Positions 1-15,545 of a DNA stretch of 43,156 nucleotides are shown here, piece by piece. Under the pieces are notes generated by a model. The model was not told the origin of the DNA, did no database searches, and saw only the letters and a list, made by a program, of their open reading frames with translations. The translations under genes and the position numbers were made by a program. Each line of letters begins with the position of its first letter. Position 1 is the stretch's first letter. The DNA is taken from contig JAQTQJ010000014.1 of the NCBI GenBank assembly GCA_028712255.1, positions 1 through 43,156 on the forward strand, written 5' to 3'. This stretch comes from Candidatus Omnitrophota bacterium. GTDB lineage: Bacteria > Omnitrophota > Gorgyraeia > Gygaellales > Profunditerraquicolaceae.

Positions 1-547
1 GCGCAAGATCAATCAGGTGTACTCCCTGGTCGATCAATTCCCCTCCACCGGAGATCTTAAAATTAGCCCTCCATTCTTTTTCGTAGCCTAATCTGCCTCC
101 GTGGCCGTAACGGCCGCGCATAAACATGAGTTCACCTATCTTACCAGAATCTATGATTTCCCTGGCTTTTTTCACCGCCGGATGATAGCGTAGGTTAAAA
201 CCCACTTTAACCATAACTTTCTTCTTCTTAGCGGCTTTTATGACGCTTTCTACCTCTTTAAAATTTCTAGCTGCCGGCTTCTCAACCAATATATGCTTAC
301 CGGCCTCTGCTGCCATAAGGGCTATCGGAGAGAGCATATCATTAGTTGTAGAAATGATAATAATATCAATGCGGGGGTCCGTTATTGCATCATGAAAATC
401 AGTAGAAACCTGCACTTGGCTTTTTAAAGCCGCCAGGGTTTCTGCGCGCTTAATATCAGAATCAACGGCCAGCAAAAGTTTATGCTGGCCAAGACCAAGC
501 GCCCGTTTCTTACCAATCACACCGCAACCGATAATTCCAACGTTCAT
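1..547 (-). CDS. Gfo/Idh/MocA-family oxidoreductase, N-terminal part (cut by window edge)
   Basis: This NAD(P)-dependent oxidoreductase probably acts on a nucleotide-activated sugar or sugar acid. Translating from the ATG at 547 gives a start MNVGIIGCGVIGKKRA, whose GxGxxG is the Rossmann dinucleotide-binding loop. A HILVEKPAARNF segment follows, where EKP is the family hallmark. A GGGELIDQGVHLIDL stretch at the left edge is typical of the second domain. About 182 residues are visible of a family that usually has 320-360. Its ATG overlaps the TGA of the upstream short-chain dehydrogenase (ATGA), so the two are probably translationally coupled. The substrate cannot be told. The family is confident because three hallmark motifs occur in the right order. 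Confidence 0.9.
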   Translation of the reverse strand, partial: MNVGIIGCGVIGKKRALGLGQHKLLLAVDSDIKRAETLAALKSQVQVSTDFHDAITDPRIDIIIISTTNDMLSPIALMAAEAGKHILVEKPAARNFKEVESVIKAAKKKKVMVKVGFNLRYHPAVKKAREIIDSGKIGELMFMRGRYGHGGRLGYEKEWRANFKISGGGELIDQGVHLIDLA

Positions 548-1413
548 AGTGATTTCCATTCTTTCCCGCGGTCTCCGGGGACAATACGACGTAGCGTATA
601 AATATCACTTTTTGTTAATTCCTTCCGCCGGTTGGGTAAAGACTCCCAGGGGTCCCATTTCGCGCTGATAAGACGCCCGCTAATCCCATCGCTCTCAGAA
701 GAAGCCAGAAAAACAGCCAGCTTGACCCCCACTTCTAAAGGAACTCCTCCGCTTATCTTCTGTCTTTGGGCCTTTTCGTAAAAATCCTTTCCCACAACCT
801 TAGGGCCGGCAGATAATACCTCGTCAAGTAATCTGGTATTAAGCGCACCGGGAGCCATAGAATTTACATCGATCTTAAAACCGGTACATTCAACCGCCAA
901 GGTTTCAGTAAACCTGACCACCCCGGCTTTGGATGCCGCGTAAGCACTGACAAAAGGAAGCGGGGATGTTGCGCCTCCCCCGGAAAGATTTATTATCTTT
1001 CCGTAATTATTTTTTTTCATATGGCCAATAATGTGTTTGCAGCAATAAAATACCCCGAATAAATTAATTTCAACAGCCTTAACCCAATCTCCGGGCTTAA
1101 CTTCTTCAATCGGGCCCAGCGGACCATAAATTCCGGCATTATTTACAAGAATGCCTACATGATTAAATTCAACTATGGCTGCATTGATTAATCTCTTGAC
1201 CTGGGCTTCTTTGGAGACATCTGCTACCACAGCAAAAACCTTCTGGCCCTTGACGGCAACATGTTTTAACTTCTCCTTAACCATTAATAAACTTTCTTTT
1301 TCGCGAGCACAAATAAAAACGTCCGCGCCCTGCCTGACAAATTCCATGGCAATGGCTTTTCCCAATCCTTGGCTGGCTCCGGTAATTATAGCGGTGCGGC
1401 CTTTTAGCTTCAA
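544..1413 (-). CDS. Short-chain dehydrogenase/reductase (classical SDR)
   Basis: This 289-residue classical SDR is a cytosolic NAD(P)-dependent oxidoreductase, here probably acting on a sugar intermediate. From the chosen start it has TGASQGLG (about 11-18) for cofactor binding, NNAG (91-94), and the catalytic pair in SAYAASK (Y158 and K162). I chose the TTG at 1413 as the start: a GGAAGGGAG ribosome site lies 6 bases upstream, and the TTG overlaps the TGA of the preceding dehydrogenase gene (TTGA). A longer reading from 1449 would add residues without SDR similarity. The C-terminal tail of about 40 residues after the fold (containing WDPWE) is hydrophilic. Fatty-acid or secondary-metabolite ketoreductases have the same fold, so the sugar role is inferred from the neighbours. 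Confidence 0.88.
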   Translation of the reverse strand: MKLKGRTAIITGASQGLGKAIAMEFVRQGADVFICAREKESLLMVKEKLKHVAVKGQKVFAVVADVSKEAQVKRLINAAIVEFNHVGILVNNAGIYGPLGPIEEVKPGDWVKAVEINLFGVFYCCKHIIGHMKKNNYGKIINLSGGGATSPLPFVSAYAASKAGVVRFTETLAVECTGFKIDVNSMAPGALNTRLLDEVLSAGPKVVGKDFYEKAQRQKISGGVPLEVGVKLAVFLASSESDGISGRLISAKWDPWESLPNRRKELTKSDIYTLRRIVPGDRGKEWKSL

Positions 1414-2717
1414 ACTCTGCTCCCTTCCTTGTAATTTCTTCCGACACAAATATAGTTAAACTTCTTAAATCCGGATAGGTTCGCAATAAAACCGTTTGGA
1501 TCGATAATAAACTTCTTCTTTATTAAATTCATTATTTCTGAATCGAAATGCAGGAATTCCGGGCAATCAGCGGCAATTACAACTACTTCGGCATCAATTA
1601 CGGCTTCTTTAACGCTCTTCTTTAACCCTATCACCTTAGAGATATCTCGCGGAACGCTTTTTATTATAGGATCAAATCCCTTCACCGTTGCCCCTTTGGC
1701 ATGAAGTGATTTAGCCAACTCCAGAGCAGGAGACCTACGTAAAGTATCAATCCCGGGCTTATAAGCCAACCCAAGGATAGCTACATTCTTTTTTCTGAAG
1801 TTTTTCAAAACCTGATGGCATTTTTTCTCGGTCCATTTTTTATGAAAAGAATTACTGCTATTGACAGCCTTGATAAGGTAAGAAGGTAACTTAAATTTAT
1901 TACTCAATCTTATCAAAAAGTTTATATCACGGGCAAGGGTACCTCAGGAAAAAGCCGTAACGGGACAAAGGTATGCTTTCGTGCCGATGCCTGATTCGGT
2001 CTTAAGGCCCCTCTCGACCTCTTTTGCGTCTGCGCCGGCCTGTTCGCAAATAGAGGCAATCTCATTAGCGAAAGAAACTGAAACCGCCAAAAATGAATTT
2101 ATGGCATGCTTGACCATTTCAGCGGATTCAATCTTCATCCACTCCAGTCTCGTAGAAATTGAGGAGAATAAAAAGCTGAAGGCATCCTTCGATTCTTGAT
2201 TCCTGACTCCGATTACAATTCGATCCGGATTTAAAAAGGCATCCATGGCTTTCCCCAATTTTAGATTCTCCGGAGAACAGGCAAAATAACAGTTTTTCTT
2301 GGGATAGCGTTTTGTAAAAATCTCTTCAATCCGGTTAACGAATCCTACCGGCGCCTGGGAAGAAACGACTATCCTAAGTCCAGTTTTAAAATAAGGCATA
2401 ATCTTTTTAATATTATCCTCAAGAAATGATATATCGGCCACATCTTTATCGTCTATCGGAGTATCGAAAGCTATCCAGAGGACCTCTGCTTTTTTCAAGA
2501 CTTCCCTGGCGTTGCACGTAAATGATAACTTTCCTGACCGGATTCCTTCTAGTATTGCTTTGTCCAATCCCGGCTCAAACAAAGGCGCCTTGGCCTTTTG
2601 CAGGCTGTTGATTATCTCTTTATTAAAATCGAGCCCGGAGACTCTATGTCCTAATTTTACCAGGCAAGCGCTGGTCACCGAACCCAGATGCCACAGGCCA
2701 AACACACAAATTTTCAT
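1410..2717 (-). pseudogene. UDP-glucose/GDP-mannose dehydrogenase family, interrupted by one in-frame TGA
   Basis: Family members oxidise the C6 hydroxyl of a UDP- or GDP-sugar to a uronate using NAD. The N-terminal part (257 residues) starts MKICVFGLWHLGS, a Rossmann loop, and contains SPENLKLGKA and KHAINSFLAVSVSFANE of the middle domain. The frame meets a TGA at 1944-1946 (codon 258) and then continues open, in the same frame, for 177 residues with GTLARDINFL, VAILGLAYKPGIDTLRRSP and a normal C-terminal domain. Reading through gives about 435 residues, a normal family length. The TGA stands where I expect a glycine in a ...GGTLARD motif. This variant has Thr where canonical enzymes have the catalytic Cys (GGxCFPKD). 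The ATG at 2717 overlaps the upstream TGA. It may be a recent pseudogene, a sequence error or a read-through codon. Confidence 0.85.
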
Positions 2718-3692: not shown

Positions 3693-5228
3693 TTAATGCC
3701 GGCAGAAGCCGCGATATTGTTCAGGTAAATAAAACATACTGGCATTATTATTCCAAAAATAAGTTTTTACTTTTTTAAATAATTTCCCTCCGGAAGGCAC
3801 AACTCCTGCGGAAACTCCGGCTTTAATAAGCAATTGCGGTGCATCGGTAAAAGGGAAAAAAGCATCGGCGGCGAAGACGGCCGATTTTAAACTTTTTCCA
3901 AGATATTCCGCCTTATGGATAGCTAATTGGACTGCCTCTAGAGTTGATGGACCGCCAGCGCAACTAATAAGGCTCCTTTTTGAGGCCAATGATACCTCAT
4001 TACCTCCGTGATTAGAACTATAAGCAACTGACCAAGCCACTATAAGAGAATCTTTTTCTTGTTCTGACAATTTTTTACCTATAAATTCAGTATTCCTTAA
4101 ATCCAAAACGTAATTGGCTGGAGGTTGACGCAAGAAACCTCCCCGCACAAAACGATAAACATATTTTTCTATAGAGATAGACGGATTGGCTAAATGCGGA
4201 TTTTCAAAAAGTTTGCGCTGATTTCTTTTACCGAGTGTTTTTATCGCTTCGGGAGAAAATCCTGTAGCCATAATCACATCTAACATCCAAAAAGGACTAC
4301 CCAATAACTTCTTACGCTCAGAACTTTCAAATAATAATTTAGCTATTTTTCCAGTTACCCTAAAATTTATCACTAATTCTCCTCCCCAAATAGCCCGGGG
4401 ATTAGCAAACAAAGCTCTTCTAATGGTTTCTCCCGGATCATCCCAGCTTACAGCCAGGCCGCAAGGATTTCCGTGTTTAGCCGCCACGCAAATATAAGGG
4501 ATCCGGTTACGGTTTAATTTAAACGCTTGAGAACAAAATACAATAGTCTGGATTAATGAGTCGCAATCAGCAAGATTGGTAAAACAAACAGACTCGCCGG
4601 ATATATGCCTAAAATTCGGTAAAGCCAGTTGATCCTGGCTTTCGGTTTTAAACATATCAGCAGGAACCTGATAAGGATTCTCTCCGTTTACTAAACTCCT
4701 GACGACCTGGCCAAATATAGCGTCATATTGATCTTTCTGTTTAACCAGGGAAATATAGTGTTTAGAAATTAAAGCATTGGTTTTATCCAAAAGTTTCCGC
4801 CTCATGCAATCGGAGACTTCACCATTTTGCTTAATTTGCTTGACGACCTCAGCCATATCAACTAAAGACATAACTGGAAGACGCCCCCCCTTAGCTGCTA
4901 AAGCTAAAATCGTCCTACCGCCTACATCATTACCCAGAGATAAAGGATAATTGATAATATAAACTAAGTCTATCTTCTGATTCGGGTCATTTCCAGTAAG
5001 GCAATGTTCGATTCTGGGATGTAGGGTCGGGGGGAATCCATAGTCCTCTTTTACGCCGGTAAAATCAGCTATGTCCGTAACTGGTAAACCGCAAGAACTA
5101 AGAACAGCAATTGTTTCTTTAGAAGCAAGGATTTCCCAGCCGGCTTTTATTAAATCCCTTGCGAACTCTTCAACCCCATGCGTGTCATAAACAGAAAATA
5201 AAGCGCGTTTAGATCGTGTTCTACGCAA
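3693..5228 (-). CDS. Divergent PurH-like protein (AICAR transformylase/IMP cyclohydrolase homologue)
   Basis: Canonical PurH performs the last two steps of purine synthesis: formyl transfer from 10-formyl-THF to AICAR, then ring closure to IMP. This 511-residue protein has the usual length and both domains. The N-terminal MGS-like domain (about 7-190) carries RALFSVYDTHGVEEFA, TLHPRIEH (68-75) and DVGGRTILALAAKGG (101-115). The transformylase domain has NGENPYQ (181-187), KHGNPCG (251-257, the K-H pair being catalytic in PurH), SNHGG (405-409) and DAFFPFTD (455-462). The cyclohydrolase side is altered: the usual STGGT is SKET, and the usual KTLHP is PTLHP. The start is TTG at 5228 with AAAGG 9 bases upstream; no in-frame ATG occurs before residue 120. 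It lies 5 bases after a TIGR04076-type gene. A sugar N-formyltransferase or a nucleoside-like precursor role is speculation. Confidence 0.82.
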   Translation of the reverse strand: MRRTRSKRALFSVYDTHGVEEFARDLIKAGWEILASKETIAVLSSCGLPVTDIADFTGVKEDYGFPPTLHPRIEHCLTGNDPNQKIDLVYIINYPLSLGNDVGGRTILALAAKGGRLPVMSLVDMAEVVKQIKQNGEVSDCMRRKLLDKTNALISKHYISLVKQKDQYDAIFGQVVRSLVNGENPYQVPADMFKTESQDQLALPNFRHISGESVCFTNLADCDSLIQTIVFCSQAFKLNRNRIPYICVAAKHGNPCGLAVSWDDPGETIRRALFANPRAIWGGELVINFRVTGKIAKLLFESSERKKLLGSPFWMLDVIMATGFSPEAIKTLGKRNQRKLFENPHLANPSISIEKYVYRFVRGGFLRQPPANYVLDLRNTEFIGKKLSEQEKDSLIVAWSVAYSSNHGGNEVSLASKRSLISCAGGPSTLEAVQLAIHKAEYLGKSLKSAVFAADAFFPFTDAPQLLIKAGVSAGVVPSGGKLFKKVKTYFWNNNASMFYLPEQYRGFCRH

Positions 5229-5233
5229 TTCTT

Positions 5234-5827
5234 TTAACCTTTCTCAGCTATCTCAAAAGTGATAGATGTATAGTCAGCCGGACATTGCAACAATAATCCA
5301 TCCTGCTTGTTATTTGAGATTAAAAACGGATACAGCGTATAAAAAACCGCGGGGCAGAAATATCTCCTTCCCCATAGATGTGAATACTGATTAAATGAAA
5401 ACTTAACCTTACCGCTGTAGCCTGCCGGGCATATTCCTTCAACCCTAAGTAATTCGATTTCCACGCAACTATCAAACAAATCTTTAGGTCGGCCAATAAA
5501 TCTGAATAATCCATCAGCAAGGTTAACCAAGGGCCAAAAGAATAGCTTCCTCGCCTTAATCACCCAAAAAGTTTTACCTTTTGTGCCTGGACAACTAAGG
5601 ACCAACTGGCCTTTGGTCTTGGATTTTCCGCCGTAAAGCAAACTCAGATACTGCGGATATATTCCAAAAAATAAGTCCGGGCAAACACCTTCGGGCACCA
5701 TATTTATAATATTGAATTCTTCTTGGCATTTACGGTAAAAAAAACAGGGGTTACGGAAATTCTTAACCCTGACCTTTAGCGTATCAACCCGTTGATTCAA
5801 AACTGAACAGCAAATATTTTGACCCAT
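5234..5827 (-). CDS. Protein with two TIGR04076-like repeats
   Basis: This 197-residue cytosolic protein of unknown function appears to be built from two copies of a roughly 75-residue unit that resembles TIGR04076. Copy 1 (about 16-90) contains MVPEGVCPDLFFGIYP, then YGG and VLSCPGTKGKTFWV. Copy 2 (about 121-194) contains GICPAGYSGKVKFSF, FCPAVFYTLYPFL and LLQCPADYTSITFEI. The order CP-x-G-x-K, then CP-x-x-F-x-x-x-Y-P, then CP near a final strand is what I recall for the family, which is normally single-copy. The Cys pattern could bind metal. It starts at ATG 5827, with AAGG 7 bases upstream, 17 bases after the neighbouring double-repeat gene. The linker (91-120) is hydrophobic and aromatic. 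Confidence 0.75.
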   Translation of the reverse strand: MGQNICCSVLNQRVDTLKVRVKNFRNPCFFYRKCQEEFNIINMVPEGVCPDLFFGIYPQYLSLLYGGKSKTKGQLVLSCPGTKGKTFWVIKARKLFFWPLVNLADGLFRFIGRPKDLFDSCVEIELLRVEGICPAGYSGKVKFSFNQYSHLWGRRYFCPAVFYTLYPFLISNNKQDGLLLQCPADYTSITFEIAEKG

Positions 5828-5844
5828 AAATAGCCTTATTGCGC

Positions 5845-6336
5845 TTAACGTTTAAAAACAAGGAGCCTGCTTTCGGATAAACAGCAGTTAATCATTATTT
5901 TACCGTCTGATATATTTTGAATCTCATCCAACTTACTCCATAATGATGGAAAAATTGCCGGACAAAATTTATCATGCTCGATTTTAAAAATCTGCCCTAA
6001 GCGGTGTTTATTTGGACAGGCATCGTTCCCGATCCCCACAACTTCGGCCTCAATTCCGGTTTTCCGGGATTTTCCTATGATTCTAACTAAAAATACTATT
6101 CCTTCGGTCCGGGGACATTGACAAAACACATCGCTTTTTTTGTTTCTCCATCTAAACCAAGCCCCTTCTTTAAACGAAACCCAGTAAGGTATTATTGAAT
6201 AGTAAGCGAACGGACATAGCCCTGATGGTACAATATCACTAAGAGAATAACTCCCTTCACCGCTATATTCCCTACAACAGCTAGAGCATTTTCCTTTTAA
6301 GGAAAAAACTATTTCAGGAGCCTTACAGATTATCAT
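5845..6336 (-). CDS. Protein with two TIGR04076-like repeats (paralogue of the next gene downstream)
   Basis: This 163-residue protein of unknown function is also a tandem of two TIGR04076-like units. Unit 1 (about 7-86) shows CSSCC, YSLSDIVPSGLCPFAYYSI, IPYW, and FCQCPRTEGIVFLVR. Unit 2 (about 94-162) shows GNDACPNKHRLGQIFKI, FCPAIFPSLWSKL and a final CCLSESRLLVF. It pairs with the 197-residue protein at 5234-5827, and both precede the PurH homologue. The 31-base gap upstream is almost pure A+T with no clear ribosome site before the ATG at 6336, so either initiation is weak or the gap carries a promoter that I cannot confirm. Family assignment is from memory of the motif; no function is known. 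Confidence 0.72.
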   Translation of the reverse strand: MIICKAPEIVFSLKGKCSSCCREYSGEGSYSLSDIVPSGLCPFAYYSIIPYWVSFKEGAWFRWRNKKSDVFCQCPRTEGIVFLVRIIGKSRKTGIEAEVVGIGNDACPNKHRLGQIFKIEHDKFCPAIFPSLWSKLDEIQNISDGKIMINCCLSESRLLVFKR

Positions 6337-6367: not shown

Positions 6368-7351
6368 TTAATAGTTAGCTATCAGCCATTCTACAGCTTC
6401 CTTTAATGTCGTATCCGGATCGGTATAGGAAATTCCTAATTCTTTAATCTTGTCCCCTTTGAATACCGGATTCAAAGACGCAAATTCTACTGAAGCCCTG
6501 GTTACGGGTAATTTTAAATCCGGCTTAATATTTTGTATACATTCAAAAAATCCACCTAACATATAAGCCAATGGCAAAGGTATTTCCAGAATAGGTTTTC
6601 GCGTATGGGCAATGCCTTGAATTTTTCTAATAAATGTTCTCAAGGGCCAATTCGCTGAGCAAAGAACATATCTTTCCGCAGCCTTATTAACTTCTAATAC
6701 TTTCAATATGGCCATAGATACATCGCGCACATCCACAAAACTATAATTACTCTTCACCGTAAACGACACTGGCGATTTAAGAAAACCTAAGATGAATTCC
6801 CCGTTGGGCGAAGGGCCTACATCTTCCGGGCCGATAATTGGAGTAGGATTAATTACGGTAAGCGGCAAACCATTTTTGCGGCTAAACTCAAAACAAACCT
6901 TTTCTGAAAAAAACTTGCTATAACCATATGGCGTGTCATGCTCCCGAAAATCATATTGGCTATCTTCGTTAAAGACTCCACCGGATTCACTATTAATTAA
7001 CGCTCGCATTGAAGATACCATAATGAACTTTTCCGGTGCATCTAAACACTCCAAAAGCTTCTTTGTTCCATCAATGTTAAACTTAAGGATATCTTCTTTG
7101 TTATGTAATGTCCTTGCCGGATGAATTGCTGCACAATGAATTACCGCATCAGCCCCTTTAACTGCCCGACGCAGGGATTCATTTTTATTCCACTCAACTT
7201 CAATAATTTTAAGATTATCACTCTTGCAAAAATCAACCCGGCTACAATAGCGAGTCAAACACCTTACCATATACCCTTTTTTGAGAAGGTCTTTAACCAA
7301 TCGGTGACCCAGGAATCCCGTACCTCCACTAACAGCAATTGTTTTTATCAT
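6368..7351 (-). CDS. NAD(P)-dependent epimerase/reductase (extended SDR)
   Basis: This 327-residue extended SDR resembles the dihydroflavonol reductase/3-beta-hydroxysteroid dehydrogenase branch as well as sugar epimerases. It shows GGTGFLG (9-15), AVIHCAA (69-75), VSSMRA (112-117) and the catalytic PYGYSK (Y142 and K146). FVDVRDVSMAI is a conserved segment near the C-terminal substrate lobe. It would reduce a carbonyl or epimerise a sugar-like substrate. It starts 2 bases after the stop of the radical SAM gene, and its ribosome site is weak, so it probably depends on upstream translation. The substrate is unknown. Confidence 0.85.
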   Translation of the reverse strand: MIKTIAVSGGTGFLGHRLVKDLLKKGYMVRCLTRYCSRVDFCKSDNLKIIEVEWNKNESLRRAVKGADAVIHCAAIHPARTLHNKEDILKFNIDGTKKLLECLDAPEKFIMVSSMRALINSESGGVFNEDSQYDFREHDTPYGYSKFFSEKVCFEFSRKNGLPLTVINPTPIIGPEDVGPSPNGEFILGFLKSPVSFTVKSNYSFVDVRDVSMAILKVLEVNKAAERYVLCSANWPLRTFIRKIQGIAHTRKPILEIPLPLAYMLGGFFECIQNIKPDLKLPVTRASVEFASLNPVFKGDKIKELGISYTDPDTTLKEAVEWLIANY

Positions 7352-7353
7352 AG

Positions 7354-8418
7354 CTAATACTTCATCCAGGTCTTTATATTATCAGTATCCAAGTTAAAAC
7401 TGTAGCTTAAATCTCCCATCTGCCCGCACATATAACACTTTTTAAGCGCGGTCAGTTTTAAAAAAGCTTCCTTTACAGTTTGGTTTCCTATCCTGACATA
7501 ATATTCCGGGCGATCATAAGCCCTGGGACAGATATATAAACAATCATCAACATTGAAGAAACAAGCCAGGTATCCCCAGAGACAGCGAGGTATCTTTAAA
7601 GCTTTCATCTGTTTTTTTTCTTCAGTTGTCATTTCATTTTCAATTAAAACATCCTGGGGAGGATATGGCCAATTTAAGAGCTGATGAATAGCGCCCCCCT
7701 TGGAAGTAATAGGCCCTCCTTTTTCTTTTATTCCCTTTATGTAGCTGACAATATTCTTTATTCGTTCAGAAAAAAAAGATGTCTCATTACCGTGTCCTTT
7801 TTTAACCCCCGTATCTAAGGCATAAACGAAATTTACGTTAGTCCTATATTTTTTAGCCAAATCTACCAAATGGTTAATATCCTTAATGGTTGTCCGATAA
7901 GTTAAAACTCCGTGGAGCCTAACATTAACCCTCCTGATTGACATAACTTCTAAAGCTTCTCTCGCAATTTCGTAAGCGCCTTGACCACGATGCATGTTAG
8001 TAGTCTCGGGTAAACCGTCAAGGCTAACACAAACCGAATAACATTTCTTAAGAGTCTCCAGATGCTTTTTAGCCTGGAATCCGTTAGTAGCCATTGAACA
8101 TTGGCAACCCCTCCCTACGATTCTAGAAACAATAACATCTAAATCTGGATGCAGAGTCGGCTCACCACCTTGTAAATCAATTTGTTGTGTACCCAGTGCA
8201 ATGAATTGATCAATATAACTAAGAAGTTTATCGGTAGGCATATCTTTCTGGCTACGGTTGTCTAAATTAACAAAACAATATTCGCACCTTAAGTTACACC
8301 TGTTAGTGATTCCAAACGTAACCAATATCGGCACGGATTTCTTAAAAAGTTTATATAATATCACCTTGGGATATATTCCGGTAGCCAGCCTAATTTTTGA
8401 CAATAGCTTGTTACCCAT
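7354..8418 (-). CDS. Radical SAM protein with SPASM-like C-terminus
   Basis: This 354-residue radical SAM enzyme binds a 4Fe-4S cluster that cleaves S-adenosylmethionine. The cluster motif is CNLRCEYC (C41, C45, C48), preceded by the strand LVTFGITNR. LQGGEPTLHPD follows, the GGE SAM-binding motif. The C-terminal region has further cysteines (RCLWGYLACFF, CLYICPRAYDRP and a final CYMCG), typical of SPASM/twitch auxiliary clusters. A GGTAGG sits just before the ATG at 8418. It lies between a methyltransferase and an SDR in the glycan operon, so a role in modifying a sugar or a glycan precursor is inferred. Peptide-modifying maturases have the same architecture, but no precursor peptide is seen nearby. 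Confidence 0.88.
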   Translation of the reverse strand: MGNKLLSKIRLATGIYPKVILYKLFKKSVPILVTFGITNRCNLRCEYCFVNLDNRSQKDMPTDKLLSYIDQFIALGTQQIDLQGGEPTLHPDLDVIVSRIVGRGCQCSMATNGFQAKKHLETLKKCYSVCVSLDGLPETTNMHRGQGAYEIAREALEVMSIRRVNVRLHGVLTYRTTIKDINHLVDLAKKYRTNVNFVYALDTGVKKGHGNETSFFSERIKNIVSYIKGIKEKGGPITSKGGAIHQLLNWPYPPQDVLIENEMTTEEKKQMKALKIPRCLWGYLACFFNVDDCLYICPRAYDRPEYYVRIGNQTVKEAFLKLTALKKCYMCGQMGDLSYSFNLDTDNIKTWMKY

Positions 8419-8430
8419 CCTACCCTTGCC

Positions 8431-9318
8431 TCACTTTCTATAACCCATCTTTTGAGCGACTACGTAACCTCTAATACCAAAAGGGTATTTTATTATTTTT
8501 CCTAAAAAATGCTCGATGCCAAACAATTTTTCCATTAATATAAACCGCGAAGTTGCGCGAATCTGTTTGAAAACAACCTGTTTATTTTCATAATCAATAG
8601 ACCGGGGGAATTTCCAACTATTGATTCGCTTTACTAGATAAAATCCCGGATAAACAAATGTTCCGAAATGGTTATGTTTTAGAATACTAAAACCGGCAGA
8701 TTGAACTTTATCTATAAGTTCGTTAGCTTCATACCTGCGTATATGGTAATGCACCTGATCGTATATATCATAGAGACTGCGCCCCATCGGAACAGTCACT
8801 ACTAATTTTCCTCCGGGCTTTACAATCCTGAACAATTGTTTTAAAGCTGCCTCGTCATCCTTAATGTGTTCTAATACATTAAGGCAAGTTACCGCATCAA
8901 ACAAATTATCCGAAAACTTGCAATCTACCAAATCCATCTGGAACAGCGGAATATCCGGCAGGCGCTGGTGACAATACATCAGGCCTTCAGAAAAATAATC
9001 CGTGCCTACAGCATGTACATTTGGAAAGTCTTTTAGTATAATTTCCAGCATATGGCCGGAAGAACAACCGACATCCAGATAACAGCAATTTTCATTAGCC
9101 AGTTTGTCTTTAATTCCGTCTATGGCAAGCTTGCGGTTATAGCAATCAATGGGATGCTCCTTCGTAAAATCCTTTAATTGCCGGGTCAACTGATCTGACC
9201 AGCCATTTCCGGAATCGGGCTGACAAAAACTGAAAAACGGATAGCTCCTTCCGTCAATTTTAAAACTTCCTTCATAGACTGCTCCGGGCAGGATTTTTTC
9301 GACCATTTCTTTCATCAT
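8431..9318 (-). CDS. Class I SAM-dependent methyltransferase
   Basis: This soluble methyltransferase has the class I signature CYLDVGCSSGHMLE (about residue 80-92), an acidic residue after the second strand (HAVGTDYF) and LFDAVTCLNVLEHIKDDE, the Methyltransf_11-type post-motif II segment. KPGGKLVVTVP is the classical late strand. It probably methylates a sugar hydroxyl in the glycan. The start is uncertain: a TTG at 9354 would overlap the upstream glycosyltransferase by 23 bases, while two ATGs at 9318 and 9315 lack strong ribosome sites. I use 9318 (295 residues). The basic C-terminus (YPFGIRGYVVAQKMGYRK) could touch the membrane, but this is a guess. Confidence 0.85.
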   Translation of the reverse strand: MMKEMVEKILPGAVYEGSFKIDGRSYPFFSFCQPDSGNGWSDQLTRQLKDFTKEHPIDCYNRKLAIDGIKDKLANENCCYLDVGCSSGHMLEIILKDFPNVHAVGTDYFSEGLMYCHQRLPDIPLFQMDLVDCKFSDNLFDAVTCLNVLEHIKDDEAALKQLFRIVKPGGKLVVTVPMGRSLYDIYDQVHYHIRRYEANELIDKVQSAGFSILKHNHFGTFVYPGFYLVKRINSWKFPRSIDYENKQVVFKQIRATSRFILMEKLFGIEHFLGKIIKYPFGIRGYVVAQKMGYRK

Positions 9319-9331
9319 TCCGATATCGATA

Positions 9332-10282
9332 TTATTTAATACCCTCGAAGCCAACAGCTTTATCTATTATATAAGCCGGCCTCTTTTGCATCTCATCGTA
9401 TATACGCGCAAAATACTCACCCATTATCCCTAGGCTCAACAGTTGGAGCCCGCTTAAAAAAGAAATCAAGATAACCAGGGTAGGATTACCCCATTTAATA
9501 TCAAAATTTAATAGTTTTAGTAACAAATATGTCATCCCAAACAAGAAGCTAAACAGAGAAATAATTACACCTAAGATAGATATCAAGTGCAAAGGATATT
9601 TAGAGAAACCGAAGACGCCATTTAATCCTATACGTATGGAGCCAAAAAGCCTATTATAGTTGCCCTTGCCTGCAAACCGCTTATCACGATGATAGGGTAT
9701 GCCGATTTGGCTAAAACCTATGTACGCCACTAATCCGCGTAAGAACCCATCATGCTCTTTCAGTTCTTTCAAATGCCCGACCACTTCTTTGCTCATTAAG
9801 CGGAAATCCCCGGTATTAGCGGGAATTTTGACGTCTGCCATCTTATTAATTAAACGGTACCCTAGATAAGAAACTACCCTTTTTATGAGAGTCTCTCCCC
9901 TGCGGCTTACCCTTTGAGCATAAACTACGTGGTAGCCTTCCTTCCATTTTTTTACCATCTCTCCGATGACTTCCGGGGGGTCTTGAAGATCAACATCAAT
10001 TACTACACAAGCATCGCCGGTGGCATAATGTATGCCTGCTATAGTGCAAGCCGGCTGTCCGAACCTGCGAGACATCTTCAAAAGCTTGACTGCGGGATAA
10101 TTTCTACGCAAATTCATGATAATGTCTTCGGTGTTATCCGTGCACGGATCCGATACAAAGATAATTTCATAATCACACCGGAGATCATGAATAACCGTTA
10201 ATATCCTCTCCATAAATGGCTTTATATTATTCTCTTCATTATAAACCGGTGCTATTATAGAAAGCTTATAATTAGAATTCAT
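9332..10282 (-). CDS. Polyprenyl-phosphate glycosyltransferase, GT2 (DPM1/GtrB/ArnC-like)
   Basis: This 316-residue membrane-anchored GT2 probably transfers a sugar from a nucleotide donor to undecaprenyl phosphate. It begins with the IIAPVYNEENN strand, has VIDVDLQDPPEVI (about 94-106) holding the metal-binding Asp residues, and SRRFGQPACTIAGI. Two hydrophobic segments follow near the C-terminus (about 226-265 and 270-300), as in GtrB and ArnC. A strong GGGAGGAAGG precedes the ATG at 10282. It lies 17 bases after a GT-C membrane transferase, which could use the lipid-linked sugar it makes on the periplasmic side. This pairing is a common arrangement in glycan-decorating operons. Confidence 0.9.
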   Translation of the reverse strand: MNSNYKLSIIAPVYNEENNIKPFMERILTVIHDLRCDYEIIFVSDPCTDNTEDIIMNLRRNYPAVKLLKMSRRFGQPACTIAGIHYATGDACVVIDVDLQDPPEVIGEMVKKWKEGYHVVYAQRVSRRGETLIKRVVSYLGYRLINKMADVKIPANTGDFRLMSKEVVGHLKELKEHDGFLRGLVAYIGFSQIGIPYHRDKRFAGKGNYNRLFGSIRIGLNGVFGFSKYPLHLISILGVIISLFSFLFGMTYLLLKLLNFDIKWGNPTLVILISFLSGLQLLSLGIMGEYFARIYDEMQKRPAYIIDKAVGFEGIK

Positions 10283-10299
10283 CTTGACCTTCCTCCCTA

Positions 10300-11367
10300 T
10301 TATTTACGCTTAGCAATATAAGAAAAGAATCCATCCCAGGCCCACCCTAAAAAAAATGCAAATAACGGCATCGTCCAGGCAAATTGCCTCTGCAAAAACC
10401 AATATTTCCCGGCCAAATCAAAAAGAAAAATGCAAACAATGGGGATGACAACAGTAATAAAAAGGAACAATAATTGTTTGTATCTGCCTGCATAAGAGAA
10501 AACGACCGGTATAAATACGCCTATAAGTAAAAAATATAATGGCTTAAAACCGATAAGGTTACAAATTATGCCTTTTAAAAAACCCACGGCATTAAGGAAA
10601 GGGTTGGGAATATATTTAAAAGGATCCAGATTATTCTGGGCAACCACATAATGCGGCCCAAATACGGAATATATCCAAAGAGGCATAGAAAAACATAAAA
10701 CGATAGCCGCAAAAGCAAGAGCACTTCTTAAATAAGTTTTAAAATCCTTCTCATCATATTTAGTTAAAAGAGTGAACAAAAGGCAGCTGGAGAACATTAT
10801 GATCCCATAAACATGGAACCAGATCACCAGGATAGAAAATATAATCGCTCCGATTCTTTTTGGTATGCTTAGTTTAAAATTTAGATCGTTTATCCTTTGG
10901 AACAAATATAACATAGCCAAGGCAAGCGTAGGCAATATAGCGTAGGCCCTTATTTCAGTGGCATGTGTAATTAAGGTTGCATTAAAACAAACAATACTAA
11001 AAGTAATAAGATATGCCCAAATTGACTTAAAATACCGATTACAGATACGATATAATATATAAAAACCTATAATGCTGGCAATTATGCAAGGTATTGCTAG
11101 ACCCCATTTATTATACGAAAAAATTTTGAAAAACGGAAAAAAGAGATAGGCATCACCAAATAAATATGAACAATAGCCGAATTTTGGTAACGCATTTAAA
11201 AGTTCTAAAAATGTCCCTTTCATATAACTTAACTCATACAATTCATCAGCCCATAACGTATGGTGATATAAAACCATAATTCTCAGGTATAGCGCATATA
11301 TACAAACAATACTTACAAAAAGAGGAGTAAAATTTTTATGAATATATCTACTAATATTTTTCAACAT
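10300..11367 (-). CDS. GT-C-fold membrane glycosyltransferase (PMT/ArnT-like)
   Basis: This 355-residue polytopic membrane protein has many hydrophobic segments and the early exoplasmic motif HTLWADELYEL (D41, E42), which resembles the acidic catalytic loop of GT-C enzymes of the PMT/ArnT type. Such enzymes take the sugar from a polyprenyl-phosphate donor and add it to a glycan, lipid or protein on the outer face. At 355 residues it is shorter than typical ArnT (about 550), so it may lack the periplasmic C-terminal domain. It is the first gene after a 215-base gap and may begin a separate transcript. The downstream GtrB-like gene could supply its donor. Confidence 0.78.
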   Translation of the reverse strand: MLKNISRYIHKNFTPLFVSIVCIYALYLRIMVLYHHTLWADELYELSYMKGTFLELLNALPKFGYCSYLFGDAYLFFPFFKIFSYNKWGLAIPCIIASIIGFYILYRICNRYFKSIWAYLITFSIVCFNATLITHATEIRAYAILPTLALAMLYLFQRINDLNFKLSIPKRIGAIIFSILVIWFHVYGIIMFSSCLLFTLLTKYDEKDFKTYLRSALAFAAIVLCFSMPLWIYSVFGPHYVVAQNNLDPFKYIPNPFLNAVGFLKGIICNLIGFKPLYFLLIGVFIPVVFSYAGRYKQLLFLFITVVIPIVCIFLFDLAGKYWFLQRQFAWTMPLFAFFLGWAWDGFFSYIAKRK

Positions 11368-11582
11368 CTCTACGAATCCTTTTTGTTAGTCAGTATACTA
11401 AACATTCTGCCTTAAGGCCTCTTTTTACTATGCTATAATCGATTCTCTTGACATATTATACCCTGAATGCTGATATAATTAGTGAATTAAGCGAGCGGAA
11501 TCTTCAGCAATTTCCTAATCTCACTTAAAGCGATACCCAACTCTTGCTGTGTCATACCATAATAGTAAACTGGACAGTTTTT
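11368..11582. other. Intergenic region, 215 bases, largest gap in the window
   Basis: The part nearest the upstream stop (11487-11582) is an open continuation of the preceding reading frame, listed separately. The rest (11368-11486) holds a minus-strand TATAAT at 11455-11460 that could be a promoter -10, but no good -35 lies 16-18 bases upstream. It also has a 10-base perfect palindrome, GCCTTAAGGC, at 11409-11418. No terminator hairpin with a T-run is convincing. This is the most likely place for an internal promoter for the genes at 11367 and below. Confidence 0.3.
11487..11582 (-). other. In-frame open tail after the TGA of the GT2-radical SAM gene
   Basis: Directly after the TGA at 11583-11585, the same frame stays open for 31 codons up to a TAA at 11487-11489. 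It begins KNCPVYYYG and ends EIRKLLKIPLA, with an internal ATG at 11555. The predicted tail is helix-like and protein-like in composition. A 31-codon open run is not rare by chance, and no ribosome site precedes the internal ATG. It could be the lost C-terminus of the fusion protein, a read-through extension or noise. Confidence 0.3.
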
Positions 11583-13634
11583 TCATAAACGCCCTGTAAC
11601 CATCAAACTATAACTCAACCAGCAAAAATGCGTACAATAACACTCCCCGCGCTTGATACTACGTAGAATCCTCTTCCATTCCTCATAAGCTAAAAGATGA
11701 TTAATATTATAATCCAGTTGACGTATATTGATTCCCGAATACGGAAGAATCTCACAGGAAGAAATGTTGCCGCAATAATCAATTGCTATAAATTCATTGC
11801 CTGCGCGACAAGGAACCGGCTGGCTTTGGTTTTGAAGCGCTTTAAGACTGTATTCAAATAGTGTGCTCAATATATTTCTTCTTGAAGGCGGATGCTGAAT
11901 TAATAATTTACCGAGGCTTTCCTTTAATAATCGCCATTCGTCGAAAGAAAGAGCCTCGTTTTCATTTGGATCAGAAGAACCCCGAACAGGTTCAAGGAAC
12001 CATTTAGCCTTTGGCATAAAGTCATGAATGAATGCTGCAAGTTTTCCGAGCTGGTCTATATTTTTTTTAGTCACACAGGTATTTACCTGTATCTGAAGTA
12101 CTTCGGGATAAAAAAAACAAAGTTTCTCAAGTTCTTCATAACTTTGGTGTACTTTTTTAAACAACCCCTCGACCCCCCGATTCTGATCATGATATTCTTC
12201 CATCCCGTCTAAAGAAAGGCTAATTATTAAATCCCGGCTGCCGTAAGCAAGAATACCTTTAACTTTTTCATAGATACGTCTGGGGTCATATCCGTTTGTG
12301 GGGATCGTAATACAGACATCTGACCTATTATCGATAAAACACCGGCAGATTTTATCTATATCCTCCCTGAGAAAAGGTTCACCGCCTCCTAAAACAACAT
12401 TATTTACATCACTTAATGATACCGTAAATAGACGAATCTCTTCTAAAGTGAGAAATTTTGCGGGTTTGTTAAGTTCTTGCCGTAGAAAACACATCTTGCA
12501 GGTAGCATTGCATTTATTGGTAATCTGAAAAACTAAACTTTTCACCGGTAAAGAAAGTGCTAATCTATCTTCCATTTCTTTATTGAGCTCGAGTAGGTAT
12601 CGACGTGGCCTTTTCCTAAAACAATCTACCCTCCATCGCTTAAACATAATCCTCGGGAAGTTAAAGAATATGGAAGCCGACATTCTAAAAAATACGAAAA
12701 TCTTCCAACTCTTAGAGTTTACCTCTTTCCGGACTCTTTCATCAAAAACTATCGGACGTTTCTGAAAGAATTTCTTCGCCCTCAACCAGAACTCTGATCT
12801 AAAGAAATAGAAATTCTGCCATCGGAAAATTTTGTTTAAAATATGGCTCAGGGGATAATGCTCTAATAAGACAAAAAAATTATTACGAAAGTATAAGTAC
12901 CGCTTCTCCCGGGCCCTCTTACTCATCGCCTGGCTCTCCAAGTGATACGTAATCATATCAGGTAAATAAACTACATCATAACCGGTTAAATGCACCCGAA
13001 TACTTAAATCTAAGTCCTCACTAATGTAATAATATTTTGCATCAAAGCCACCGATCAACTCAAAGATATTCCTCCGGATAACAGTGCCCGCAGAACAAGC
13101 GCCCAAAACTTTACCGGAAATTTTATGATTATTCAAGACAAGATCTTGATGCTTTTTATAGAACGCTCCTGCGAATGTAGGGCCTTCCCCTTTAATTCCG
13201 CAATCCAGTATAATATCCGAGTCGAAACCACTCACAACCATAGTCGCAATTTGCCCGATTTTAGGATCACCCTGCAGATAAGCAATACCCTTTTTAATCC
13301 AATCCTGATCCTTAAGAATAACATCGTCATCTAAAAAGACAAGATATGCACTGTTACCCATACGCGCCGCAATATTCCTGTTATACGCCGGTCCGCGATT
13401 GCGAGACTGCTCTATAACTTTAACCCCCGGGAATCTATCACGGATAACCCTGACTGTCCGGTCGATAGAATGGTCGTCAATTATAATGTAATTGAAATTC
13501 TGAAAAGATTGTTTTGCGAGCGAATCTAAAAGTTGCAAGATATGCTTCTCGCCGTTATAGGTCGTAATAATAACATCTACGCGCTCGTCTTTAGTAATTC
13601 CGCTGCCCGGCTTCTCATCAGTGTAGGAACTCAC
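11583..13634 (-). CDS. Fusion of GT2 glycosyltransferase and radical SAM/SPASM enzyme
   Basis: This 683-residue protein joins two enzymes. Residues about 18-270 are a GT2 domain with VIITTYNGEK, IIIDDHSIDRT (51-60), the metal-binding FLDDDV (100-105) and SEDLDLSIRV (205-213). After a basic linker (about 280-355) comes a radical SAM domain with CNATCKMC (C375, C379, C382), VLGGGEPFLRED, and a C-terminal SPASM-like region (CRAGNEFIAIDYCGNISSCEILP and CYCTHFC). The GT2 part could transfer a sugar, and the radical SAM part could modify the same glycan or an acceptor. The start is GTG at 13634 with GGAG 7 bases upstream. No frame change occurs in the linker, so the fusion looks real. The frame remains open for 31 codons after the TGA. 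Confidence 0.88.
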   Translation of the reverse strand: MSSYTDEKPGSGITKDERVDVIITTYNGEKHILQLLDSLAKQSFQNFNYIIIDDHSIDRTVRVIRDRFPGVKVIEQSRNRGPAYNRNIAARMGNSAYLVFLDDDVILKDQDWIKKGIAYLQGDPKIGQIATMVVSGFDSDIILDCGIKGEGPTFAGAFYKKHQDLVLNNHKISGKVLGACSAGTVIRRNIFELIGGFDAKYYYISEDLDLSIRVHLTGYDVVYLPDMITYHLESQAMSKRAREKRYLYFRNNFFVLLEHYPLSHILNKIFRWQNFYFFRSEFWLRAKKFFQKRPIVFDERVRKEVNSKSWKIFVFFRMSASIFFNFPRIMFKRWRVDCFRKRPRRYLLELNKEMEDRLALSLPVKSLVFQITNKCNATCKMCFLRQELNKPAKFLTLEEIRLFTVSLSDVNNVVLGGGEPFLREDIDKICRCFIDNRSDVCITIPTNGYDPRRIYEKVKGILAYGSRDLIISLSLDGMEEYHDQNRGVEGLFKKVHQSYEELEKLCFFYPEVLQIQVNTCVTKKNIDQLGKLAAFIHDFMPKAKWFLEPVRGSSDPNENEALSFDEWRLLKESLGKLLIQHPPSRRNILSTLFEYSLKALQNQSQPVPCRAGNEFIAIDYCGNISSCEILPYSGINIRQLDYNINHLLAYEEWKRILRSIKRGECYCTHFCWLSYSLMVTGRL

Positions 13635-13660
13635 TATTTATCTCCTATTTTTAAAATCAC

Positions 13661-14572
13661 TTAACGGCCATAAATTATATTGATTATTTTTTTATAGAGT
13701 CTCGGAGAACTATACTGATATTTTTCAATCAATCTGTCCGCTATCATATCTCGAAATATATAAGGTGGATGCAACAAAGGAAATTCAACATGTTTTTTTT
13801 CCAGGTTAGCCACTATACTCTTGGCCATAGTATGCGTACCGCTACTCCCAAAACCAATGTTTGACACTAAATTCACATCCGGAACAATAGCGATACCGTT
13901 CTGCAACCAGCAGGCAAACAACCATTGGTAATCCCATGTATCGATCTTCCTCTGATATACTTTTTCAAAAATATTACTCCAGTAGGAAACCTCTTTTCTA
14001 TCTTCAAGGATATTAAGAAGTAATCGTTTCTCGCTGACTTCAGGCCATAATTTCATATCCACATCATAATATTTCCATGCCCTTCTCCAGGATGCCCAAC
14101 CCCATATAATGGTATATCTTGAAAAATAATAGCTGTATTCCGTAAACTTCCTGCCAAATTGGAAATTACTTCCGCTTATCATCGTAATCCGTTTATCATT
14201 TCTGTAATACTCTAAAAGTTCTTTGCAAAATCTAAAAAAAGTAAAGTCCGGCAAGCAATCATCCTCAAGAATAATTCCTTCTTCAACATTTTCAAAGAAC
14301 CAGTTAACGGCACTACTAAGAGCAGTCCTGCAACCTGAATTCCTTTCCCTGAAAAAGGTCTTCGTCTCGCAATCCCAGTCAATTTGTTCAATAATTTTTC
14401 GAGCTTGGTCACACTTCTCTTTATCTTTTGCTACTCCTTCTCTAGGCCCATCTGCGGAAATGAAAAGCTTAGAAGGCTTACATTTTTTGATCTGTTCAAA
14501 AACCTTAAATGTCGTATCAGGCCTATTAAAAATTAATAGCAACACGGGAATATCAAATTTATCCTTATTCAC
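13661..14572 (-). CDS. Glycosyltransferase-like protein (HlpA-like, GT-A fold)
   Basis: This 303-residue protein starts IPVLLLIFNRPDTTFKVFEQ, has the acidic metal site IILEDDCLPD (EDD about 103-105), and IIWGWASWRRAW (about 156-167). I recall these from proteins annotated as hemolytic protein HlpA-like or nucleotide-diphospho-sugar transferases, which have a GT-A fold. It likely adds one sugar of the repeat unit. The start is GTG at 14572 with AGG 8 bases upstream. The 115-base gap upstream may contain a weak promoter. The annotated name of the relatives should not be taken as evidence for hemolysis. Confidence 0.75.
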   Translation of the reverse strand: MNKDKFDIPVLLLIFNRPDTTFKVFEQIKKCKPSKLFISADGPREGVAKDKEKCDQARKIIEQIDWDCETKTFFRERNSGCRTALSSAVNWFFENVEEGIILEDDCLPDFTFFRFCKELLEYYRNDKRITMISGSNFQFGRKFTEYSYYFSRYTIIWGWASWRRAWKYYDVDMKLWPEVSEKRLLLNILEDRKEVSYWSNIFEKVYQRKIDTWDYQWLFACWLQNGIAIVPDVNLVSNIGFGSSGTHTMAKSIVANLEKKHVEFPLLHPPYIFRDMIADRLIEKYQYSSPRLYKKIINIIYGR

Positions 14573-14687
14573 TTTATAACCTTTCTATTTTTTCTAAGAG
14601 AACATCGTAATCAAACCGTGATTGACACATTCACAATAAATTCGGTTTAGTAAGAGTTCAACTATGCTACAAGGCAATTTTCCCTAA
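14573..14687. other. Intergenic region, 115 bases
   Basis: This is the second-largest gap in the window, between the methyltransferase stop and the GTG of the HlpA-like gene. A small inverted repeat (AATCA and TGATT around a CGGTT loop) lies near 14609-14623 and resembles an operator more than a terminator. No T-run hairpin, RNA gene or coding frame is seen. Confidence 0.25.
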
Positions 14688-15545
14688 TTAAAGAAAAGAG
14701 TCTTTTTTGATACCAAGCCCAATCAGTATATTTATAATCATACTTTTTATAGTGCTTAAGTCACACTTCAAAAATGCCGCTATCCTGCTGTTAGGCCTTG
14801 AACAAGTTAGTAATCTTTTAGAATAGCCACTTTTTGTAAGAAAAAGTACGCCCCATGTTTTTCCGGATATTTCCCCAAACCAAGCGTTTTCCAGATAATC
14901 GCTATTCTCAAGGATATTCAGCCCCGAAGGAATAACTACACGCTCATTTAATCTACGGATATCCTCGTATTTCCCTCCATGGGCAAAAGGGCCGTAATCA
15001 AATGTAAGAGCCATAATCCCTCCCGGCTTAAGCACCCGGGACATCTCTTTAATCGCTTTATCCTGTTCTTTATACGACAAGTGCTCAAGGACGCATACGC
15101 TAAAAACTCTGTCAAAAAAATTATTTTCATAAGGCATCTGAGTCATATTCCCCTTTAGATTATGCATTCCCAGCCCCATCGTTTGAGATACAAAATCAGC
15201 ATTTTCTACTATTCCTTGTTTGCGCCAATCAATGTCTATTGTGTATACGTGGCACCCTTTTGACGCCAGGTAAAAGCTAAAGATCGTACTGGCTCCTCCG
15301 CAATCTAAAACTTTCATATCTCTTAGCGGAGCACTGTTTACTACTATGGTAGAAATTTCCCAGAGCTTGCGCTTAAACCAGATATCATCTTTTCCCCATC
15401 CGGAATCAAATTCAGCCTGATAAGTCGTAAACTTAAGCCCCTTACTTTCAAAAATGTGTATTAACCCCATAATCTCTCCTATGATCCTAGATTGAGGGTC
15501 CAACTTCAATTCTTCAAGGTTCAGGGTTTTATTAATTATTTTCAT
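14688..15545 (-). CDS. Class I SAM-dependent methyltransferase
   Basis: This 285-residue soluble methyltransferase has the SAM motif MKVLDCGGASTIFSFYLA (about 77-94), an acidic YTIDIDW at the end of the second strand, FDRVFSVCVLEHLSYKEQ, and KPGGIMALTFDYGP. An N-terminal extension of about 70 residues precedes the core. It probably methylates a sugar or glycan terminus. The start is uncertain: ATG at 15545 or TTG at 15560, which overlaps the upstream TGA; neither has a good ribosome site. It follows a SPASM radical SAM gene directly. Confidence 0.85.
   Translation of the reverse strand: MKIINKTLNLEELKLDPQSRIIGEIMGLIHIFESKGLKFTTYQAEFDSGWGKDDIWFKRKLWEISTIVVNSAPLRDMKVLDCGGASTIFSFYLASKGCHVYTIDIDWRKQGIVENADFVSQTMGLGMHNLKGNMTQMPYENNFFDRVFSVCVLEHLSYKEQDKAIKEMSRVLKPGGIMALTFDYGPFAHGGKYEDIRRLNERVVIPSGLNILENSDYLENAWFGEISGKTWGVLFLTKSGYSKRLLTCSRPNSRIAAFLKCDLSTIKSMIINILIGLGIKKDSFL

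Follow-up and report, generated by a model that had tools for sequence, protein, structure and literature searches.

A diverged second PurH that accompanies Cys-rich TIGR04076-like proteins and a radical SAM enzyme, probably in an undescribed pathway that formylates a non-purine

What does an altered second copy of the purine enzyme PurH do beside two Cys-rich proteins in a bacterial polysaccharide locus? This question is raised by a stretch of 43,156 nucleotides from Candidatus Omnitrophota (contig JAQTQJ010000014.1 of assembly GCA_028712255.1; referred to as the window), which belongs to a genome (G000) of 1.7 Mb that is 96% complete and distributed over 37 contigs. We report that the diverged PurH, here referred to as PurH-L, forms a separate clade, that it co-occurs with one of the Cys-rich proteins (protein A), and that a radical SAM gene is found nearby at nearly every locus with enough flanking sequence. 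Together these genes probably represent an undescribed pathway in which a compound other than a purine is formylated.

The PurH-L locus and its Cys-rich proteins

A first-pass annotation described three adjacent genes separated by 17 and 5 bases, and the coordinates confirm this arrangement, with 17 bp between B and A and 5 bp between A and PurH-L (Table 1). Transcription is from the minus strand in the order radical SAM gene, epimerase-like gene, B, A and PurH-L, followed by nucleotide-sugar genes and the SDR gene. The epimerase-like gene is not a recurrent neighbour at other PurH-L loci and its membership of the module is uncertain. Taken as a whole, the window is a polysaccharide locus, in which genes for glycosyltransferases, a flippase-type protein, C-methyltransferases and dTDP-sugars are joined by six or more radical SAM genes; Pfam assigns a B12-binding domain to two of these. 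In addition, a single gene at 11583-13634 encodes a family 2 glycosyltransferase fused to a radical SAM domain.

Table 1. Positions of the PurH-L locus features in the window.
Feature	Position	Strand	Description
SDR dehydrogenase	544..1449	-	PurH-L loci often have an SDR or Fe-dependent alcohol dehydrogenase (Fe-ADH) gene nearby
PurH-L	3693..5228	-	511 aa, TTG start; MGS-like N-domain and AICARFT-like C-domain; diverged PurH paralogue
KHGNPCG motif of PurH-L	4458..4478	-	Residues 251-257; contains the Lys-His pair that is catalytic in AICAR transformylase; invariant in PurH-L
FPPTLHP motif of PurH-L	5016..5036	-	Residues 65-71; RVKTLHP in canonical PurH; catalytic Lys66 lost
Protein A	5234..5827	-	197 aa; two TIGR04076-like domains with three conserved Cys each (alignment)
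Protein B	5845..6336	-	163 aa; one complete and one degenerate TIGR04076-like domain; homologue of A
NAD-dependent sugar epimerase/dehydratase-like gene	6368..7351	-	PF01370; HpnA-like below cut-off; between B and the radical SAM gene
Radical SAM enzyme	7354..8418	-	PF04055; recurs beside A/B and PurH-L

Both Cys-rich proteins had been described as carrying two Cys-containing repeats. This holds for A, with six conserved Cys across its two domains, but not for B, where the three conserved Cys are in the first domain and the second is degenerate. The two proteins are homologous (hhalign E=5.4e-18). Window B reaches 32.5 bits against TIGR04076, just under the 33-bit cut-off; window A has no NCBIfam match, yet TIGR04076 is matched by nine of the ten members of the A alignment (best E 9e-15), and the A profile matches, with E=1.7e-12, a double TIGR04076 protein of the ordinary kind encoded on contig 4 of G000. 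Compared with the TIGR04076 family, with which their domains share the three-Cys pattern, A and B differ in being arranged in tandem, often fused, and in being tied to radical SAM and PurH-L genes; they are encoded by separate genes or by a single fused gene, with the orders A-B and B-A both seen and one SDR-A-B fusion (L045). A Foldseek search of the PDB with the A model (pLDDT 71) found nothing usable (best E 0.37), and the open-access literature offers only a guess, redox or iron-cluster, for the role of TIGR04076.

Double TIGR04076 proteins are present in about 20% of our phylum sample. The one at 7061-7648 in L050 (G000:C4:102000-116000) has, as judged by eye, two ketosynthase-like genes, a B12-type radical SAM gene, a cyclase-family-like gene and an SRPBCC-like gene as neighbours, and the same gene set is present in L073, perhaps reflecting a conserved polyketide-like pathway of Omnitrophota.

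PurH-L as a separate PurH clade

The PurH homologue is full length, as first noted. It matches PF01808 (105.2 bits, cut-off 25); the match to the MGS domain PF02142 is weak (22.6 bits, cut-off 24.1). Against the purH equivalog models TIGR00355 and NF002049 it scores 153.9 and 176.2 bits, below the cut-offs of 528 and 402, respectively, and all 21 PurH-L members match these models as diverged relatives. The AlphaFold (AF2) model has a pLDDT of 90.7, and its best Foldseek matches are all PurH/ATIC along the whole length, with TM-scores near 0.55 and a large rmsd; a different predicted angle between the two domains is the probable reason.

The window copy is not the only purH in its genome. A canonical purH (518 aa, KTLHP intact) is present on another contig (G000:C3:110017-111489), and in an IQ-TREE phylogeny of 20 PurH-L and 13 housekeeping PurH sequences a single branch (support 100/100), with long stems, divides PurH-L from housekeeping PurH, so that two of the checks proposed with the first-pass annotation, for a second canonical purH and for a separate clade, gave a positive answer. 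PurH-L members from different phyla are 43-53% identical to the window protein and canonical PurH about 30%.

A single-sequence scan of the genome contigs gave no PurH-L relatives; a three-sequence profile identified 22 loci among 84,980 species genomes. After merging duplicates, and with some loci added through whole-genome searches, the total is 24, comprising the window and a subset of L027-L051. The hosts are Omnitrophota, Nitrospinota, Desulfobacterota-type bacteria, Pseudomonadota, SAR324, Lentisphaerae and other MAGs. In one host phylum (that of G402) only one of 395 genomes has PurH-L, and such a rare and patchy distribution is as expected for a horizontally spread accessory pathway. 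Three candidate loci (L006-L008) were rejected as canonical purH, a viral origin was rejected since IMG/VR has no relatives, and searching a plasmid collection returned only ordinary purH-type matches of about 25-27% identity. One PurH-L member (L043/L051; L051:7174-8265) lacks the N-terminal cyclohydrolase-like domain, which suggests that the formyltransferase half is the indispensable one.

Residues were mapped on an alignment of 21 PurH-L and 13 canonical PurH sequences. PurH-L shares with PurH/ATIC (TIGR00355, PF01808+PF02142) the domain order and fold, and the two have GENP, Lys251-His252, Asn410, Asp462 and the C-terminal Arg506, Phe508 and His511 in common. Specifically, Lys251/His252 (Lys266/His267), Asn410 (human Asn431), Asp462 (human Asp546) and the C-terminal Arg/Phe/His are invariant in 21/21 PurH-L sequences; human Asp546 is a pterin contact (PMC10186366), and the human AICAR contacts and the role of Lys66 in IMP cyclohydrolase are as described (PMC3261824). 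The transformylase motifs first read in the window protein, KHGNPCG, GENPYQ and DAFFPFTD, are all present. For human Asn431 and His592 we follow the general understanding of the enzyme.

In contrast to canonical PurH, the Arg and Tyr of RYGENPHQ, both AICAR contacts, are lost in PurH-L, and the corresponding positions (Arg208/Tyr209 in the numbering of PMC3261824) have a variable residue and mostly Asn. The cyclohydrolase domain lacks Lys13, the TGGT loop and the Arg and Lys (human Lys66) of RVKTLHP, and its phosphate loops are lost; Tyr94, Asp101 and Lys113 (human Tyr104, Asp125 and Lys137) are retained at 90-95%. Of the two altered cyclohydrolase motifs pointed out earlier, both present in the window, PTLHP lies in a stretch (FPPTLHP) that is largely conserved in the family, whereas SKET is unconserved and was rejected as a defining motif. 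PurH-L also has invariant residues of its own: Cys215, Thr217, Trp314-Met315, Gly408-Gly409 preceding Asn410-Glu411 (GGNE) and the GGP at 425-427. As judged from the sequences, this pattern fits an active formyltransferase with an altered acceptor site.

Co-occurrence with protein A and radical SAM genes

In a sample of 384 genomes from the phylum, PurH-L is present in five (G000, G051, G073, G118 and G181), and exactly those five score 122-247 bits with profile A; the next scores are 80-88 bits (G165, G187 and G332), and the remaining genomes are below 60 bits, which corresponds to ordinary double TIGR04076 proteins. Likewise, PurH-L and A are present in the same two of 77 genomes from the phylum of G403 (a Nitrospina MAG) and in the same two of 200 from the family of G410 (a Zoogloea MAG), and across the three samples strong A matches (at least 97 bits) occur exactly in the PurH-L genomes. 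The hypergeometric probabilities of these exact overlaps are 1.5e-11 (384 genomes), 3.4e-4 (77) and 5e-5 (200), values that are softened by phylogeny, by the choice of G403 and G410 as PurH-L carriers and by the construction of profile A; the A3 profile was built from A proteins adjoining PurH-L, which makes the co-occurrence partly circular, with A of G118 and G402-G405 left out of it. Moreover, G463 has three PurH-L and three A copies on the same three contigs. A lies within the PurH-L locus at 16 of the 24 loci; among the other eight, A is encoded elsewhere in five genomes (G118 and G402-G405) and was not detected in three (G406-G408), where PurH-L is at a contig edge in two and one PurH-L is truncated. 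Across phyla, PurH-L has TIGR04076-like genes beside it or elsewhere in the same genome, and the first-pass idea survives this check as well. The pairing of PurH-L with A is real, and on these co-occurrence tests the arrangement in the window is far beyond chance.

While TIGR04076-like partners had been recognised from the window alone, a recurrent radical SAM enzyme and dehydrogenase had been overlooked. In nearly every case where the flanks of A/B are long enough to judge, a radical SAM gene is within three genes of them, often overlapping A, and an SDR or Fe-ADH gene is often near PurH-L/A/B. The recurrent operon order is radical SAM, A(B) and PurH-L with short overlaps, in two arrangements: radical SAM, A and PurH-L with Fe-ADH and/or FkbM (L035, L037, L047 and L048), and radical SAM, A, B and PurH-L with SDR and several further radical SAM genes (e.g. 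L028-L031, L042, L044 and L045). In L073-L077 PurH-L is distant from A, which is still with radical SAM; in L074 radical SAM, A and FkbM are together with PurH-L elsewhere.

A/B are also found with radical SAM or SDR genes and no PurH-L in G165, G187 and probably G332. Specifically, L079 (G165:C26, 5802-8567) and L080 (G187) have A and B together with SDR and radical SAM genes, and the best match to the PurH-L profile in these two genomes (70-156 bits) resembles housekeeping PurH. A/B and the radical SAM enzyme are therefore the broader core, to which PurH-L is a specific addition that is not essential to every such system.

Two further features of these neighbourhoods were noted. In L073 (G118:C3:142000-160000, 9108-15382) a B-A fusion and a radical SAM gene are followed by genes that by eye encode a phosphorylase, an MtnA-like isomerase, a class II aldolase and an aldehyde dehydrogenase; this run resembles 5'-deoxyadenosine salvage (DHAP shunt) and would be fitting beside a radical SAM system. 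Split transketolase subunits are encoded near PurH-L in two Omnitrophota genomes (L031, 7485-7997; L049, 16073-17381).

A possible formylation pathway and its alternatives

The family, clade, co-occurrence, gene order, retained and lost residues and predicted fold of PurH-L are directly established, and on this basis we propose, with a probability of about 0.5, that PurH-L is a neofunctionalised PurH that would act as a 10-formyl-THF formyltransferase on an amine other than AICAR, tied to a radical SAM step with A/B as helpers and an SDR or Fe-ADH. In the order of steps we envisage, the neighbouring radical SAM enzyme would make or modify the amine acceptor; A and B, with three Cys per complete domain, would be obligate helpers of this step, probably as metal/Fe-S or substrate-binding partners. 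The transformylase half of PurH-L would move a formyl group from 10-formyl-tetrahydrofolate, the use of which is suggested by its residues, to this amine. The cyclohydrolase half has lost Lys66 and its hold on the ribose-5'-phosphate; with the equivalents of Tyr104, Asp125 and Lys137 kept, it may bind or close another product. An SDR or Fe-ADH would carry out a linked oxidation or reduction that finishes the product, most likely a decoration of a surface polysaccharide or a related metabolite. A folate-dependent module acting on a sugar- or nucleoside-derived precursor had been suggested for the window; the retained residues support its formyltransferase chemistry, while the substrate is conjecture. 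A bolder and rather doubtful extension is that the horizontally scattered module of radical SAM enzyme, tandem TIGR04076 protein pair and retargeted PurH builds, on a surface glycan or its precursor, a purine-like group that is formylated or ring-closed, which would be a second use of PurH chemistry, outside purine synthesis.

Alternatively, A/B might themselves be the substrates, with a radical SAM/SPASM-like enzyme modifying their Cys-rich domains and PurH-L formylating a side chain to give a protein-bound cofactor. Radical SAM/SPASM enzymes often modify proteins, and the near-constant adjacency of radical SAM genes to A/B, the invariant Cys of A/B and the exact copy-number match in G463 would all be in keeping with this. 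We nevertheless consider it unlikely, given that PurH acts on a small nucleotide, that A/B show neither a leader nor a variable core region and that TIGR04076 proteins are common without the radical SAM/PurH-L set.

Similarly improbable is that PurH-L contributes to the synthesis of a natural product resembling a nucleoside, by analogy with ForH, a PurH-type protein of the formycin pathway. ForH (formycin A cluster, PDB 6nko) is a cyclohydrolase-type PurH-family domain from a natural-product cluster that matches the PurH-L N-domain in sequence and fold, and PurH-L has retained the Tyr/Asp/Lys of this domain. The match is, however, no better than that to housekeeping PurH, and ForH consists of the N-domain only whereas PurH-L has both domains and other partners. 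The phosphate-binding loops are lost in PurH-L, the loci are mostly glycan or radical-SAM clusters, and no C-nucleoside synthase or phosphoribosyl gene was recognisable in the inspected loci.

The full domain organisation, the catalytic Lys-His and the C-terminal Arg, an AICAR contact, might indicate that PurH-L is a divergent or moonlighting purine enzyme, i.e., an extra AICAR formyltransferase or AICAR sink with incidental neighbours; the canonical purH in the same genome, the deep separate clade, the absence of Lys66, of the Arg/Tyr pair that contacts AICAR and of the phosphate loops, and the near-exact co-occurrence with A make this very unlikely. Least likely is that PurH-L, with several canonical substrate contacts lost, is a non-enzymatic structural or ligand-binding subunit of a radical SAM complex, since the examined transformylase catalytic positions are all invariant in 21 sequences from many phyla, which is improbable without catalytic selection.

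Returning to PurH-L as a retargeted formyltransferase, sugar N-formyltransferases of the ArnA/FMT fold, encoded in surface-glycan loci, formylate amines with 10-formyl-THF as the donor. The chemistry is the same as that proposed for PurH-L, but the fold is unrelated, and no ArnA/FMT-fold formyltransferase gene belongs to the PurH-L module. PurH-L also differs from PurH/ATIC in its setting, i.e., radical SAM/glycan loci of a genome that also holds a housekeeping purH. Our literature search covered open-access papers, in which we found no description of a module of TIGR04076, a PurH-like paralogue and purH-radical SAM genes, and as far as could be checked the module is undescribed.

PurH is usually treated as a single-purpose housekeeping enzyme and PurH-L copies are likely annotated as purH; a purH match alone is unsafe ground for scoring the purine pathway as complete. 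If our model is correct, PurH-L would be a new member of the formyl-transfer enzymes that act outside purine synthesis, and the uncharacterised TIGR04076 family would have its first testable pathway. Finally, it would hint at unknown chemistry in the surface polysaccharides made by Omnitrophota and by other bacteria that are seldom cultured.
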